From: a virus
Strand: one strand, 5' to 3'
DNA length: 32,844 bases
Virus record (IMG/VR): IMGVR_UViG_3300030943_000108
Span: 1-32,844 of that record
A program made the position numbers and the translations under genes. The notes beneath the pieces were generated by a model. The model did not search any database. It saw only the letters and a program-made list of their open reading frames with translations, and was not told the origin of the DNA. Shown piece by piece: positions 4,185 to 18,758 of the stretch (positions are counted from its first letter, which is position 1; every line of letters begins with the position of its first letter).

Positions 4185-5603
4185 ATGGCAATAATTGCTG
4201 AATTTACAACAGTAAAACCTGAATTAGCTCACTCTAAAACGTATGAAGATTTTTATAAATTTCTTGGTGCTCGTCCAACTCGTTTGGGTATCGTGTCTAA
4301 AATGTATGAACATTTAACTGCTTCATATTTAACAGAAGGACTAGGAAACATTATGTACAATAGTCAAAAAACAGGTTCTAAATTTCAAAAAATCAATTCT
4401 CTTATGTTTGAGTGAGAAATTGATGTTAACTTTATCAAACGTATAGAATTTGCAGCTGTTCCAACTGGAAATGGTGCTAATGGTTCTGATATTACCATGC
4501 AATTTACAGAACGTTATTTTGAACGTAATGATACTTTCATTATTGAAGAATCAAAACAACAATGTATTGTTATGGAAGCCCCAATTCGTAAATCAGATAA
4601 TTTCTGGGAATATTCAGTAAGATTAATCGATTCAACTTATAAAGAAACTTTAGATTTTACATCATGTCAAATTGGTATGACTACTCGTTTCGTATCTAAT
4701 ATTCAACCAGAATATCATGAAGAAGGTTTTGCTAAATTCCAATCAAATATTGAAAAACATCGTAATTGGATTACTGAACATAGAGTTGATGTTAATTACT
4801 CTTCTCGTTATGCTTTAACCGAAGATGTATTCTTGAAAATCTCTAATGGAGAAGATGGTGGAGCTTACAAAGAAGCAATCTTTAAAATGCCTAAAGCAAA
4901 AGAACAAGCATTAGCTAGTTTCATGGAAGCTCGTAACAATGCTTTACTTTTACAAAAAGGTACTATGGATGTGAATGGTAAGTCTTCAATCATTGACAAA
5001 TTAGGTCGTCCATTGATTGCTGGTGATGGAGCAATCCCTCAAATTAACCGTTTTGCAGGTAAATATAATTACTCTAAATTAAGTGTAGCTGTATTTAATA
5101 AAGCCATTACTACAATGACTCAAAAAGCTTCTTCTCCAGGTGGAAATACATTTGTATTTGTATGTAATGAGGTAGCTTATGCTGATGTTCAAACTACATT
5201 AGCTGAATACTTAAACAACTTCAAAGTATTAAATTCTTACATCTACTCACAAGCAGAAGGGAAAACTATTAAAGTTGGTGCTACTTATAGTTCTTATGAA
5301 TTCTTAAATAACACAATCGTATTCAAAGTAGATCGTGCTTTATCTCGTGAATATCCAAATAAAGGTTATGCAATCTTAGTAGATTTAACTGCTGATAAAG
5401 CAAGTGGTCAACCAGCATTACAATTATTCTCTTTAAAAGGCGCTGAATTTACAAGTAATACTTTAGCTGGTGTTGGTGGTCTTGATGGTGCAACTTCAGG
5501 TGTAGTTTCTACTCCAGTTGCAGGTAGCAAATTAATCAATAGTGGATTTGCAGGTATTGGGGTATTTACACCGTATAGAGCGTTCGTACTTTGTCAATCA
5601 TAA
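4185..5603 (+). CDS. Major capsid protein (MCP), crAss-like; exon 1 ends at 5574
   Basis: One reading frame covers this span once the TGA at 4413-4415 is read as Trp (LMFE-W-EIDVNFIKRIEF), a segment I recognise from crAss-like MCPs. HK97-fold capsid subunit forming the shell. It uses CGT, ATC and TTC codons more than its neighbours, as expected for very high expression. The unspliced frame stops at 5601-5603 and gives 472 residues ending PYRAFVLCQS. A group I intron most likely begins after base 5574; joining to 6656-6684 also gives exactly 472 residues, ending PYRSFVLMQN. Both messages therefore encode an almost identical protein. Trp codons: one TGA and two TGG. Confidence 0.92.
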
Positions 5604-5667
5604 TCAATATAGAAATATTTGATTAAATATCTGATTATAGTAATATTTAAAATATATTCTAAATCAT

Positions 5668-5698
5668 TTTGTTTTACCACATAAGTTTCGTAACTTTG
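5668..5698 (+). promoter_or_regulatory. Promoter inside the intron, upstream of the endonuclease
   Basis: TTTG (5668-5671), 19 bases, then TAACTTTG (5691-5698) is a very good match to the Bacteroidota TTTG/TAnnTTTG promoter. The endonuclease start codon follows at 5717, 19 bases beyond the element, so a short leader is expected. It is the best promoter match I found in the window and would let the endonuclease be made independently of late capsid transcription. Confidence 0.7.
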
Positions 5699-5716
5699 CA
5701 TATTATTAAAATAAAT

Positions 5717-6448
5717 ATGGAGAAATACAAAATTAAAAATAATCACTATTTATATAAAATTACCAATGTAATAACTAAAGAATATTATTTAGGTGTAAGA
5801 AGTTGTGATTGTGAAGTAAAAAAAGATAGATATATGGGTTCAAGTCAAGTTTGGACTAAGGAATATATTAAAGATAATAAACAAAATCTTAAGAAGGAGA
5901 TTCTAAATGAATTTCCTTCGAGAGAAGAAGCAGATATTAATGAAGTTATATTATTAAAAGAGAATGAACATAATTCTTTATGTATCAATATTTTATATGA
6001 TTCAATTCCTAGTTGGTTGGGTAAAAAACAATCTGAGGAACATATAAATAAACGGAAATTATGTGGTGAAAGAAATGGTATGTTTGGTAAACATCATACA
6101 GATGAAGTTAAATTTCAAATTTCTGAATCACTTAAAGGACGTACTATTACAGAAGAAACTAGAGAAAAGATGTGTAAAGCTCAAAAAGGTAGAGTAATAA
6201 CAGATGAAACTAAAGAAAAACTTAGAATTGCTAAAGAAGTTAAGAAATTAATTATAGATACAATTACTAATGAACAATGGGTTATGGGTTTAAAGTCATT
6301 TGCCGCTGAACATAATTTAGTTTATACAAGTTTACGTTATGCTGAAAAAAATAAAACTTTATATAAAAAACGATACAAAGTAGAATGCATTAATGATGCG
6401 GCCTTCATTGGTAACAATGATTGCAAATTGGGTGAAAACGGGGAATAA
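5717..6448 (+). CDS. Intron-encoded GIY-YIG homing endonuclease with NUMOD3 repeats
   Basis: Encodes 243 residues. The N-terminal GIY-YIG nuclease domain shows YLY (11-13), YLG (24-26), a conserved Arg in DRYMGSS (38) and acidic candidates for catalysis at E71/E76 (EEADINE). Residues 101-173 hold NUMOD3-type DNA-binding repeats (GKKQSEEHINKRK, GMFGKHHTDE, SLKGRTITEETREKM, QKGRVITDETKEKL). A NUMOD1-like helix-turn-helix follows at about 189-225. Such enzymes cut intron-free alleles so that the intron is copied in. I chose ATG 5717 because it follows the promoter at a normal distance; an upstream in-frame ATG at 5669 lies within the promoter. All Trp codons are TGG. The last ~18 codons overlap the ribozyme core. 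Confidence 0.9.
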   Translation: MEKYKIKNNHYLYKITNVITKEYYLGVRSCDCEVKKDRYMGSSQVWTKEYIKDNKQNLKKEILNEFPSREEADINEVILLKENEHNSLCINILYDSIPSWLGKKQSEEHINKRKLCGERNGMFGKHHTDEVKFQISESLKGRTITEETREKMCKAQKGRVITDETKEKLRIAKEVKKLIIDTITNEQWVMGLKSFAAEHNLVYTSLRYAEKNKTLYKKRYKVECINDAAFIGNNDCKLGENGE

Positions 6449-6655
6449 CCAGAAGTGGTCAATCCCGTCGGAAGTTTGGGAAAACTAATTAAAGTACCAA
6501 AAACCGCTAACGACTAATAGGTGAGTATAGTAAACAATAATCCTAACACGAGTGCCCGACCTCTTTATTTAGAGAGGATGATATAGTCTGAGCAATGGTA
6601 TAACAAAAGAAGCCATTGAATTAAGGGATAAAGAGCCTTTAAGATAACAACACTG

Positions 6656-6684
6656 ACAGAAGCTTCGTACTTATGCAAAACTAG
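6656..6684 (+). CDS. MCP exon 2 (C-terminal nine residues)
   Basis: After splicing, T5574 joins AC (6656-6657) to make TAC, and the frame continues RSFVLMQN to a TAG at 6682-6684. The joined C-terminus PYRSFVLMQN closely matches PYRAFVLCQS, which is encoded by the start of the intron. This match strongly supports both the splice site and the frame. Confidence 0.75.
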
Positions 6685-6716
6685 GATTAAGTTTAAATAA
6701 TCCAAAATTAAAATAT

Positions 6717-6750
6717 AACTGCTACATAAATCGTGTAGCAGTTATATTTA
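6717..6750 (+). terminator. Terminator after the MCP gene
   Basis: A perfect 10-bp stem, AACTGCTACA (6717-6726) and TGTAGCAGTT (6734-6743), with a 7-base loop, is followed by the T-rich ATATTTATT. It sits 33 bases after the MCP stop. Together with the rest of 6685-6816, which contains no gene, it separates the capsid transcript from downstream genes. Confidence 0.75.
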
Positions 6751-6816
6751 TTAGATAATAAAATATAAAAAATAGATATGTAGTTTAACTACTACTTAAA
6801 TTAAAAATGAATTAAT

Positions 6817-7632
6817 ATGAATGATAATATTATTATTATAAGAAGTGTATTTGGAAAAGTTGAACAATCATTCTTTATCCAACCATGTCCTAATCCAAAA
6901 ACTGGTCAATTACCTGCACATGTAAAACCAATAAATTCAAATGGGGATATGATTTTATCTGAAAAAGATAGAACTGAGATGAGTCAAGGTGCAATATTTA
7001 TTGCCGCTGATGAAGCAATTGAAATAGTTGATGGAACTATGTTCGATTTAGACAATGATTATCAAAAAGCAAGATGGGAAGCTATTCAATATTCTAAACT
7101 GATTGCAAAAGAGAGAACCGCTACTAATGAACAAGGTGAATTCCTTATTGATGGTGGTCAAAAAAGATATGGAATTGCAGATTTATATATACAACGTCCA
7201 GGAGAAGATACTAAGATTAAAAATACTAAAAAACGTTTAGTTATTAAAGCTCAAAATTTTGTTTTAGAAGATTCACAAGAAGGTAGAGTTACAAAATGTA
7301 AATTACTTGGTAAAGAAATGGGTAGTGCACATTACAGTGATGTTGAAGATTACTTATTAAGTATTGCAGAAAAAACCCCAAATAAAATTATTGATTTGTA
7401 TACAGGTACAGATACAGAAATTCGTATGTTATTAATTGATGCTTTAAAAGCAGGAGTTATATTAATTAAATCAGGTATTTATACCTATGGTGATTATGTA
7501 AATCTTGGTGTAACTGAAAATGCAGCTATTGCATGGTTAAAACAACAAGGAAATGCTAAATTAGTTGCAGAAATTAACTCTGAAACATACCCAAATTATA
7601 ATAAAGTAGAGAAACCAATCTCTAAAAAATAA
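6817..7632 (+). CDS. Conserved virion-locus protein downstream of MCP, function unknown
   Basis: Encodes 271 residues, soluble, with no signal peptide or membrane segment. It opens MNDNIIIIRSVFGKVEQSF and contains QPCPNPKTGQLPAHVKPINSN, an acidic central part (AADEAIEIVDGTMFDLDNDYQKARW), a basic block (KIKNTKKRLVIKAQ) and a helical C-terminal half. Directly downstream of the MCP in crAss-like phages lies a conserved gene of uncertain role, and this fits that position. The start is preceded by an A/T-rich leader without Shine-Dalgarno. Both Trp codons are TGG. It could act in head completion or DNA packaging; I see no catalytic motif and do not assign a function. Confidence 0.78.
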   Translation: MNDNIIIIRSVFGKVEQSFFIQPCPNPKTGQLPAHVKPINSNGDMILSEKDRTEMSQGAIFIAADEAIEIVDGTMFDLDNDYQKARWEAIQYSKLIAKERTATNEQGEFLIDGGQKRYGIADLYIQRPGEDTKIKNTKKRLVIKAQNFVLEDSQEGRVTKCKLLGKEMGSAHYSDVEDYLLSIAEKTPNKIIDLYTGTDTEIRMLLIDALKAGVILIKSGIYTYGDYVNLGVTENAAIAWLKQQGNAKLVAEINSETYPNYNKVEKPISKK

Positions 7633-14510: not shown

Positions 14511-17500
14511 ATGAAAAATCTACCAAATTTATCTATAGAAAAACAACTATATTTATCTTATATTCCAAAAGAAGGTACATTATCAAATGTTTATAATCCT
14601 TTAAGAAATTTATTAACTAATGATGGAGTTATAAATAACTTTACAACTTCAAATTTAGATTTAGATTTAAATTCACCTATTAATATAGAAATTCAACCTT
14701 CTTTTGATGGGAGTGTTAATTTAATAATAAATAATGATAAGATAAAACCTAAATTAATTAATTCTAGATTTTCAGTTCAAGAAAATAATACATATACAAT
14801 TATAGATCATAAAGGTAATAAAGATACTAATTTATATGAAGATTTGCAATTAGATCTTGATACTAGATTATATAAAACTATTAATCAAATTCCTTCATTA
14901 GAATTTGAAGGTTTAACTATTAATGGTAAAATGAAATGTGGTGGTTATCATTTTTATTTTAAATTTACTGATAATGATGGAAATGAAACTGATTTTATAT
15001 CAGAATCTGGTCTAGTAACTTGTCATATTGGTAATCTTAATGATCCATTCTCTATACGAATGGGAATGCAAAATGAAGATTCTAAAAAAGCAATTAAATT
15101 TAAACTTACTAATTTAGATACTTCTTTTGATTTTATTAAAGTGTATTATACAAGAACAACATCTGATAGTAGTCAACAAGATGTAACAACAGCACATTTA
15201 ATTGATAATAAATATGTAATTAATGGTAATATCGCTGAAATACTAATAAGTGGATTTGAAAATGTTATAGATATATCATTAACTGATATAAATCCTTTAT
15301 ATGAAATTGCAAATTCTGTTAAAGCACAAGCTCAATGTCAGAATATGTTATTTTTTGGAAATATATTTAAACCTGAAATACCTTATCAAGAACTAGAAGA
15401 TTTAAGTTTACAATTTATACCTAAATTAGCTAATAAAGAATCTATTGGTAATTTAGATGGTAGTTATAATGATAAATCAGGACAAAAATTATTTGAATAT
15501 TATAATACAAAAAATATTTATTACAATTTAGGATTATGACCTGAAGAATATTATAGATTAGGTATTGTATATTTATTAAATGATTATACATTATCACCAG
15601 TTTTTAATACTAGAGGTTTAGATTTTACTAATTATAATTATCAAAATTATTCTGTATTTACAGATGAAACTAAATTAATACGTAATTATATAAATGTGGA
15701 TGAATCAAATTATTTAGTAAATAAATTAAATACTTTTGAAAATTCAAAAGGAGTTATTAAATTAAATAAAGAACAAGTGATATTTTCTGATGGTGTAAAA
15801 CCAATTGGATTAAGTTTTAATATATCTTCTGAAACTATAACAGAATTAAAAAAATATACTAAAGGATTTTTTATTGTTAGACAAGAACGTATTCCTACTA
15901 TATATGCGCAAGGATTAAATATTAGTAAAACAGAAAAAGATTATGGAAATATTCCAGTATTAAGAATAGATGGAAAAGGTATTACTCAATCATTTCTTAC
16001 CCCAAAATTATTACTAGGGACAACACAATTAACAACTACTAATATTTCAAATAAAGCAGCTATAGTTCCTGAAGCTGAAATAAGAGAATCATTATTTAGT
16101 CAATTATTTACATCTTCTGAATATAAATTAACAAGTGCTTTTGAACAGAGTGAATTACTAACACAAGTAAATAATAATTTTATAATAGATAGAAATGTAA
16201 CTTTATCAAATGATAATATAAGATCATCATTATTAACTATGGTTAAAGATGGTTTAAAATTAACTACAAATGGTACTGATTATTTTTCAGCAAAATCAGG
16301 AGAAGCAGAGGAAGCTTGATTAACAAATGATTTAACTAATCAATGAACTACTAAAGATGATCCAAGTGATTTAAATGAAACTGCTGCAAAAGTAAATGAT
16401 CCATTGACAACAAGTTCTAATTTAATTAGAGGAATGTATGGATCATATGTTGGATTATCTAATGGATCATTAGAATTTGGGACTATTTTCAATGTAGGGG
16501 TTATATTTAATGTAAGACCTATAGATTTTAGTAATTCTGATGACTATAAATTAAATATGTTTAAAGTAAGAATGGATTCATCTGAACCATATTCTGCAGT
16601 TAGTGATAGACTTTCTTGAGATACTTTTATTAGTAATGGTTTAAATGTATATAGAGGTGATTGTTTTGTCTGTAATTTTACACATAGAATGAATCGTAAT
16701 TTTATTGATCCAGATTTACCAACAAATACTAAAATAATAGATGTAAATACTTGAAAAAAGAATTATACTGTTTATCAAGATGGTGTTGCAGATAATTTAG
16801 CTGCTAATAGAGTTTTAATTAGTTATAAACAAAAAGGAACTGATACACCTATTGAACCTTCAGATGCTAGTTATGCAAATAAAGGATCTGGTGTAAGTTC
16901 TTTATTGGGTGGTGGTGATGATTCCTATAAAATTAAAGGTGCTGATAAAATAAATAGAGCAGATGTAAATAGTGTTCAATTAGGTCAATGAGTTACTTTT
17001 AAAGTTATGTCTAATATAAATTTATCTATGCGAGATATAGATTATAGTAATACTGCAGAAGAAGCTATATTTGGACATAAACGTAGTTTTTACCCATTAC
17101 AACCAATGTCTTCAGAAGGTCCATTTAAATTACCAGATTCTTCTGTAATAAACGGAGCTGCTAATTTAACATTATCAGAACGTAAAAACTTTATTATACC
17201 TGATGTGCCATTTATTAAAAATAAATTTGATACAAGAATTTTATATTCTGATATACATGTAACAGATGCATTTAAAAATGGTTATAGAGTATTTGAAGGA
17301 GGGCATTATCAAGATTATACTAAAACATATGGATCTATAGTAGATTTAAAAGAATGGTATGGAAGTTTATTTTGTACTATGGAACATGGTTGTTTATTAA
17401 TACCTGTAAATGAAAGGGCTATAGCTGCAGAAGGTGCAGGTGGAAATGCTTATATTAATACTTCAAATGTATTACCTGAAAATCCAAGAGTTATATCTGA

Positions 17501-18758
17501 TTTATTTGGAAGTACATGACAAGAATCAATTATTAAAACAAAAACAGGTATCTATGGTTTAGATACAGTAGCTAAAAAAATCTGATGTGCTACTTCTGGT
17601 GGAGATGGGAATATACAATTAGAAACTATATCTGATTTAAAAGTTCAAAAATTTTTAAATGATAATATAAATTTAAAAGAAGCTGATAAAATTCCTACAA
17701 TGGGATTAAAAAATGTAAAAACTCATTATAATAAAAATAAAGGAGATATATTATTTACATTTTATAATGGAATTAAAGAATGAAATTTATGTTATAATGA
17801 AAATCTTAAGAAATTTATTACATTCTATTCATGAACTCCAAGTCATTCTGCTAATATTGATAATATATTTTTTACTTTTGATAAAAAATCAAGTAAGAAT
17901 AATCTAAAATTAGATGCAAATAATAATATCTTAAAAAGTACCAATGGTTTAATGAGTCCAATTACTGGAGTTGTTGATAATAAAATTTGAAAACATGGTC
18001 AATCTGGTATATATGATAATCAAGGATTAATAATGCCTACAAATTGGTATGGCGAATTACACCCATTTGAATTTGAATTTGTAGTAGCAGATATACCAAT
18101 TGCACAAAAGATTTTTAATAATTTAAAATTAATTAGTAATAAAGTTGAACCTGAATCATTTGAATTTGAAATTGTTGGGGAAAGTTATGATTGATTTGAA
18201 ATTAAAGATTTAATTATCTGAATAAATAATCAAGTAAAATCTTATTCAACTACAAATTCTCATTTTGTTGACTTACCAACGGCATATAAATACATTCTAG
18301 GATTAAATTTATCAGAAATTGAACAAATATATCCTAATTTTATTAGACCTTTCTCAAAAGAAGATACTTTATATGATCTATATAAATTTCCTAAATTACC
18401 ATACTTAAATAGAATTAGAAAATCTAATGGTTTATGAGAAGCTAATTCTGCAAATGTAGAATTAAGAGTAGATGATCTATTAAATGAAGACAGAATTCAT
18501 ACTCAACAAAATGCTAATAATATGAAAAAATATGGCAGAGTAAAAGGTAATATGCAATATAAAGAAGATGTCTGAGATGTAGAAATTAGACCAATAACTT
18601 TTAAATATGCTTATTTAAAAAATGGCATTTTAAACTATACAGTAGGTAAAGAATTAAGAATTAGAGATAAATATGTAAAAATTAGAGTTAAATATACAGG
18701 AAAAGATTTAACTATTATACAAGCAATTAAAACAAATTTTACAATAAGTTATGCATAA
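14511..18758 (+). CDS. Giant tail-barrel (muzzle-type) protein rich in TGA-Trp
   Basis: Encodes 1415 residues only if TGA is Trp; I count 15 in-frame TGA codons (first 15537, last 18573) against about two TGG. The N-terminus (NLSIEKQLYLSYIPKEGTLSNVYNPL and INIEIQPSFDGSVNLIIND) and the segment GGYHFYFKFTDNDGNETDF match a large conserved protein that follows the stabilisation gene in crAss-like phages. In the known crAssvirus structure the protein at this place forms the large barrel, or muzzle, at the tail end. The C-terminus has beta-rich baseplate-like sequence (VWDVEIRPITFKYAYLKNG). It overlaps the next gene by 8 bases (ATGCATAA). All recoded sites lie beyond residue 340. The structural role is well supported; the name is moderate. 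Confidence 0.85.

Follow-up and report, generated by a model that had tools for sequence, protein, structure and literature searches.

An exon look-alike at the start of a group I intron in the capsid gene of crAss-like phages, a likely replacement exon for unspliced mRNA

The major capsid protein (MCP) gene of a crAss-like phage is split close to its 3′ end by a group I intron, and this intron begins with an in-frame look-alike of the very coding end that it displaces. The arrangement was studied in the window, i.e. the whole stretch of 32,844 nucleotides analysed here (IMG/VR virus record IMGVR_UViG_3300030943_000108), and it recurs at the same site in six other lineages. The look-alike is likely a selected, translated replacement exon that provides a built-in rescue for unspliced mRNA, with its translation being inferred from sequence alone.

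The window is part of a crAss-like phage whose MCP matches the Pfam family PF23898 (Crass_capsid, E=3e-11); a sequence search against the PDB gave no match to E=0.01. Reading TGA as Trp opens up the MCP frame and several late ORFs. The 5′ exon of the MCP gene (4185–5574, plus strand) comprises 463 codons and the first base of the Tyr464 codon, and contains one in-frame TGA, read as W77. The unspliced ORF (4185–5603) encodes 472 residues with the C-terminal end PYRAFVLCQS. Joining CCGT (up to 5574) to ACAGAAGC (from 6656) also yields 472 residues, this time ending in PYRSFVLMQN. The intron splits the gene within codon 464 of 472, and the second coding end begins 1052 nt beyond the stop of the unspliced ORF. 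The look-alike exon (5575–5603, plus strand) supplies the alternative tail AFVLCQS and the stop TAA, and the native 3′ exon (6656–6684, plus strand) supplies SFVLMQN and the stop TAG. Over their last 30 bases, the two ends agree at 19 positions and differ at 11. A preceding sequence-only reading of the window had claimed both the equal length of 472 residues and the agreement at 19 of 30 bases, and these claims held with TGA read as Trp.

Only four of the 32,734 29-mers on the plus strand of the window, the look-alike included, match the exon at 18 or more positions, and none does so on the minus strand; TTCGTACTT occurs in the window only in the look-alike and the exon. Three other IMG/VR contigs (L001, L002 and L004) carry the same arrangement with 99.98–100% identity over the 4–5 kb compared, and it is therefore not an assembly quirk of a single record. 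An AlphaFold model of the MCP places the last strand at residues 466–471, beyond the splice point, with a mean pLDDT of 53.8 and a pTM of 0.42, which is too weak to build on.

The insert (5575–6655, plus strand, 1081 nt) is identified as a group I intron by its P1 helix, its junction and the covariation of its core. This anatomy is shown; splicing is inferred from sequence alone, without RNA data. The junction obeys group I rules, with a U before the 5′ site and G6655 as the last intron base. In P1, CCGU and the first two intron bases, AU, pair with the internal guide sequence AUGCGG (6396–6401, plus strand), which forms the P1 3′ strand and places a U.G pair at the cut. The sequence-only reading had proposed this 6-bp helix, which held and now has the support of covariation over seven lineages: P1 measures 6–8 bp with U.G at the cut in all seven, and compensatory changes occur. 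It should be noted that the search for lineages required the U.G at the 5′ site and left the remaining P1 pairs free. P1 covaries with the 5′ exon (CCGU/GCGG, CCUU/GAGG and CCAU/GUGG), and the third base of the Tyr codon is also tracked. Further, the terminal G is present and the reading frame is restored on intron removal in 7/7 lineages.

Downstream of the guide lie the P2 hairpin CATTGGTAACAATG (6406–6419, plus strand), drawn from the fold and the covariation helices, and the P3-P4-P5-P6-P7-P8 core (about 6429–6588, plus strand), defined by covariation over the seven lineages. With P7 included as a pseudoknot, 96.5% of the 317 cells of the P2–P9 structure are paired across these lineages and both sides have changed in 23 of 47 pairs, 13 of which fall in P3–P8; neither value was reached in any of 500 shuffles. 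P7 is invariant, hence silent on covariation, and one pair in P3 covaries. No group I match was returned by Rfam at the gathering threshold for the window, nor to E=10 for 5400–6850, a miss that is taken as limited model sensitivity, an Rfam match being no defining biological feature. The single-sequence MFE of the 3′ part of the intron (z −1.54) is not informative.

An intron-core pattern scan of IMG/VR returned 78 loci. The core subtype of the window was present on 11 contigs, and in 10 of them an MCP tail with a look-alike upstream of it was found. The locus on the eleventh, L116, begins inside the intron with its upstream part unreadable, and shares a contig with L004, which has the MCP end. 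Three further pattern scans of IMG/VR revealed no additional contig with this intron subtype. The loci represent seven lineages, namely the window (L001, L002, L004), L052, L054 (L099, L125), L120 (L101), L065 (L169), L072 (L140) and L091 (L103); for statistics, L099 and L101 were merged into their near-identical lineages. In all seven, the intron follows the CCNT of Pro-Tyr codons, ends in G and is succeeded by the exon, and it starts with an in-frame duplicate, equal in length, of the coding end downstream. The unspliced and spliced tails read RAFVLCQS and RSFVLMQN in the window, KSFILEQV and KSFILEEV in L052 (where the same Ser is written AGT and TCA in the two copies) and, not labelled by lineage, RSFILRQS and RSFILREA (two lineages), RSFVLKQS and RSFILREA, RSYVLRQI and KSYVLREI, and KSYIARQI and RSYIAREI.

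All seven look-alikes are open to the equivalent stop, given that TAG is read as Gln in three lineages and TGA as stop in two. The TAG in question encodes the look-alike Gln of L054, L120 and L065, and on these contigs long neighbouring genes appear only if TAG stands for Gln. The MCP exons contain no TAG in L054 (287 codons) and L120 (274 codons read back), so that the reading in these two rests on the neighbouring genes, and one in L065. The look-alikes of L065 and L091 end in TGA, which is taken as a stop. The proposal of the sequence-only reading that the look-alike keeps the MCP whole when the mRNA is unspliced is supported, and it is the best explanation because the same-site intron recurs in six other lineages.

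The differences between each look-alike and its own exon are mostly synonymous. Across the seven lineages, 55 of 210 bases differ, changing the meaning of only 16 of 70 codons. Random placement of the same number of changes gave 36.1 residue changes (sd 2.5), with none of 20,000 draws as low as the 16 observed, and six settings of a neutral null predicted 29.5–36.0, with 0/2000 as low in each. Even the setting with the lowest expectation, in which the exon branch was allowed synonymous changes only and the transition bias was set to 6, predicted 29.5 (sd 2.7; 0/2000). The test covers nine codons only and its null models are simple. Taken singly, L052 and the window stand out clearly, neutrality is not rejected by L120 and L091, and L054 and L140 fail to reject it in some null settings. 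Mean identity among lineages is 0.60 for the look-alike; it drops to 0.32 in the 29 nt that follow and is 0.35 in the 29 nt after those, where L120 is left out. For the true exon it is 0.62, falling to 0.31 in the following 29 nt. As identity drops right after each stop, both copies are conserved up to the stop and not past it.

Introns at other sites of the capsid gene served as controls. From 70 introns called between MCP profile hits, with no call made where the flanking hits lay more than 14 positions apart, 17 were dropped for a junction score below 100, leaving 53, and the removal of 9 duplicates left 44. The first 30 bases of these 44 distinct introns match their own 3′ exon at 5–12 positions (mean 8.1, sd 1.7); the same comparison gives 18 for the window and 17–25 for the seven same-site lineages. 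A look-alike was absent from all 44 distinct, reliably called junctions at other MCP sites, and the printed unspliced frames of the controls would give a truncated or altered protein. Related crAss-like MCP genes (L005, L006, L044, L055, L077, L085, L091 and others) harbour introns at many other sites, and the L091 gene gives six profile hits. In other intron-bearing MCPs, overlaps between MCP profile hits were considered as candidate look-alikes, and at the ten loci inspected they look like profile over-extension. Similarly, a suspected C-terminal intron in the L046 MCP was not seen, the gene merely having a different tail; this tail (PYRSVILISEETRTLWF, L046:5360–5422) is unusual and longer.

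Outside the capsid gene, the cr50_1 dUTPase intron (L012) and the Fpv1 intron (L013) share parts of the window's core, and no look-alike was apparent when the cr50_1 intron was read by eye. At L012:1472–2911, the cr50_1 dUTPase gene is split by this related group I intron, which has an HNH endonuclease gene upstream of the core; the cr50_1 record lists the split dUTPase as two separate genes. The core loci were also scanned with the stop codon as anchor, and at seven of them the MCP look-alike came out on top (17–23 of 27 bases). The scan is insensitive, as it missed the look-alike at L144 and L169, and mismatched controls scored mostly 12–18, with three at 21–26. Other high pairs in its top 30 appeared to be chance matches or recurring intron core sequence.

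Comparison with intron-free relatives bears on which of the two ends is native. Ser follows PY or PW and the subsequent Arg or Lys in all 23 listed full-length intron-free MCPs (21 chosen from the relatives' search, some of them near-identical, plus L009 and L010), as in the spliced frame, and the look-alike of the window has Ala at this position. Intron-free L038 ends in PYKSFILSQN, again like the spliced frame. Further, the 3′ exons of L120 and intron-free L039 share 29 of 30 bases, and the L120 look-alike differs from its own exon at five. Collectively, the intron-free relatives and the agreement of L120 with L039 make the downstream exon most simply the native one and the look-alike an added copy. 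Intron-free relatives whose MCP continued differently past the tail would have refuted the sequence-only reading; they were looked at and did not refute it. Relatives of the phage MCP also occur in genome bins labelled Erysipelotrichaceae and Clostridium (L180, L181 and L182), possibly phage contigs binned with bacteria.

As for the origin of the copy, two possibilities had been raised from the start, namely capture of a related MCP end and duplication of the target. The look-alikes are closest to the exon of their own host, an assignment equalled in only 12 of 5040 permutations by residues and 3 of 5040 by bases. This resemblance speaks for duplication of the local exon and joint evolution, or for repeated renewal, rather than for a single capture from a distant relative, without settling the matter. 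The one consistent difference between the copies is the penultimate residue, which is Gln in 7/7 look-alikes and Glu in 6/7 own exons and 21/23 of the listed intron-free relatives; the first base of this codon is exon base 21, which differs in six of the seven lineages. The change to Gln may reflect endonuclease immunity, a functional tail or history.

The intron carries a GIY-YIG/NUMOD3-type homing endonuclease ORF (5717–6448, plus strand, 243 aa) that matches PHROG 314 (E=6.6e-28) and Pfam NUMOD3. The Pfam search of this ORF gave no GIY-YIG match, and the protein is taken to be a GIY-YIG endonuclease from its motif YLYKITN...YYLGVRS. The ORF lies mostly within the P1 loop, and its 3′ end overlaps the internal guide sequence, P2 and the start of P3. 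Homologous ORFs are present in five of the six other lineages; with identities of only 45–67% over all pairs, the intron lineages have therefore long been separate. L065 has a 372-nt intron without an endonuclease ORF of at least 60 codons and has kept the look-alike. With its homing endonuclease gene inside the P1 loop, the intron is of the mobile type; mobility itself and cleavage of the intron-free allele are inferences. Weak relatives of the endonuclease (29–39% identity) are found on other viral contigs (L097, L177, L178 and L179).

In the proposed mechanism, translation would enter the intron whenever the mRNA is unspliced, or when the intron is still being transcribed as the ribosome reaches the 5′ site. 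The ribosome would then read the look-alike and stop, producing a full-length MCP instead of a truncated subunit; the early stop would be positioned so that the early product is complete. Once the ribozyme folds, with P1 formed with the distant guide and the P3–P8 core in place, the intron would be removed and the native exon joined, giving a similar MCP tail. The anatomy, the covariation of P1 and the core, the recurrence in seven lineages, the selection on the look-alike frame and the conservation of the native exon are shown. Splicing in cells, translation of both forms, mobility and the benefit of avoiding truncated capsid subunits are inferred, as no RNA or protein data exist. The same lack of RNA or protein evidence applies to the claim of the sequence-only reading that the intron is nearly cost-free. 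Other points weigh against the replacement-exon reading, namely the Rfam miss, the lineages that singly fail to reject neutrality, the Ala of the window's look-alike in place of the Ser of all 23 listed intron-free relatives, the reliance of three look-alikes on TAG as Gln for their full length, and the TGA taken as a stop in two.

Three rival explanations deserve consideration. Under gene replacement, the element would splice hardly or no longer, the look-alike would be the real MCP tail and the downstream exon a relic. A fungal precedent exists, as the native C-terminus of Glomus atp6 was not found in mRNA (PMC3630166). However, the downstream exon is intact in 7/7 lineages, its conservation equals that of the look-alike and identity declines at its stop; in addition, the core covaries and P1 tracks the 5′ exon, all of which makes this rival unlikely. 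Less likely still is that the look-alike is a recent neutral by-product, a fresh local exon duplication made during homing that has not yet decayed and has no function. In its favour, look-alikes are most like the exon of their own host, and that of L091 differs from it at only 4 of 30 bases. Against it stand the synonymous excess over the seven lineages in each of seven null settings, the frames of the window and L065, which are still open at 11 and 13 base differences from their own exons, and the Gln in all seven look-alikes.

The least probable rival assigns the resemblance to RNA structure, whereby the intron start (as an extended P1) and the 3′ exon (as P10) would pair with one guide strand, without any coding role. 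The first ~20 nt of the window intron can indeed pair just upstream of the guide (dimer −27.2 kcal/mol against −17.9, sd 2.6, in shuffles; 0/500 as good). With the guide region included, shuffles were as good in 4 (window), 7 (L052), 9 (L054) and 6 (L065) of 300, which is partly due to P1 itself, and in 5/7 lineages P10 pairing is possible for the first 3–4 nt of the 3′ exon. However, the 3′ exon of the window pairs with that strand no better than shuffles (469/2000), and the intron-start pairing is no better than shuffles in L120 (161/300) and L140 (201/300) and weak in L091 (46/300). An extended P1 over the look-alike was thus rejected as the main cause, since it beats most shuffles in four lineages and fails in three. 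Moreover, pairing does not predict synonymous differences, equal length or conservation that ends at the stop. In our reading, RNA pairing accounts for the first 3–4 nt of the resemblance.

Two extensions of the replacement-exon reading may be entertained more tentatively. The intron may be a home-and-rescue element, in which a recoded 3′ coding end of the target rescues unspliced mRNA and also confers immunity to the element's own endonuclease, the immunity arising from base changes, for instance at exon base 21, where C or T takes the place of G (6/7 lineages). It is also possible that the two tails, mostly Glu versus Gln, mark distinct capsid isoforms set by splicing efficiency.

The closest known systems are found in fungal mitochondria. 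In Tremella fuciformis, introns occur whose 5′ end duplicates the following exon (PMC7315562): as here, the first stretch of the insert is close to that exon in size, highly similar to it and joined to the upstream exon. Of six such inserts, one behaved as a real intron by cDNA (PMC7315562). Unlike the present case, in which a phage capsid gene is interrupted at one conserved site in seven lineages and a selection test is available, the Tremella inserts were read as gene-fragment exchange. Mobile ORFs that bring a replacement C-terminus are described for Glomus atp6, atp9, cox2 and nad3 and, cited there, Allomyces atp6 (PMC3630166); in these, too, an endonuclease element supplies a new 3′ coding end that displaces the native one, and the atp6 copies share 63.5% nucleotide and 91% protein identity (PMC3630166). 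However, just one of the four Glomus genes is listed there with a group I intron, whereas here the covariation of core and P1 implies that the native end is used as well. The sequence-only reading had named such fungal mobile ORFs as precedents, which held.

Among phages, group I introns are known in the MCP genes of Delta and Zeta crAss-like phages (Yutin et al. 2021, PMC7886860), the same kind of gene, phage order and intron class. No exon look-alike is mentioned in the relevant sections of that paper, however, and other MCP introns surveyed here lack one. In mycobacteriophage LittleE, splicing of a capsid intron was shown by RT-PCR and protein sequence (PMC3706429). There, too, an intron with an endonuclease gene resides in the major capsid gene, but the endonuclease gene is on the opposite strand and the relevant sections mention no look-alike. 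The T4 td intron is a phage group I intron whose I-TevI ORF overlaps the core (PMC3073962), as does the ORF of the window. I-TevI is a GIY-YIG endonuclease. The td ORF, however, is in the P6 loop rather than P1, and no exon copy is mentioned in the relevant sections. A 2025 preprint on Jug phages reports metatranscriptome reads that support the splicing of 37 of 76 predicted introns (PMC12363816), and a 2025 paper on Zeta crAss-like phages refers to introns only in general terms in the relevant sections (PMC12386605). The open-access PMC literature searched yielded no description of a phage intron with an exon look-alike; exon-duplicating introns have been published for fungal mitochondria.

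The persistence of introns in essential, highly expressed genes is usually put down to efficient splicing. The replacement exon suggests an alternative, in which the intron brings a selected spare exon, so that little should be lost when splicing fails or is late. The arrangement is relevant to the question of how kilobase introns in the structural genes of phages are tolerated where transcription and translation are coupled, and recalls engineered home-and-rescue drives that carry recoded target sequence. The two tails offer short peptide signatures, one for spliced and one for unspliced mRNA.

Two minor observations concern other parts of the window. Just 3′ of the native MCP exon, at 6711–6749, lies a near-palindromic inverted repeat with an 87% match to its own reverse complement, perhaps a terminator. 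Farther downstream, a structural ORF of 1415 aa (14511–18758) contains 15 in-frame TGA codons.
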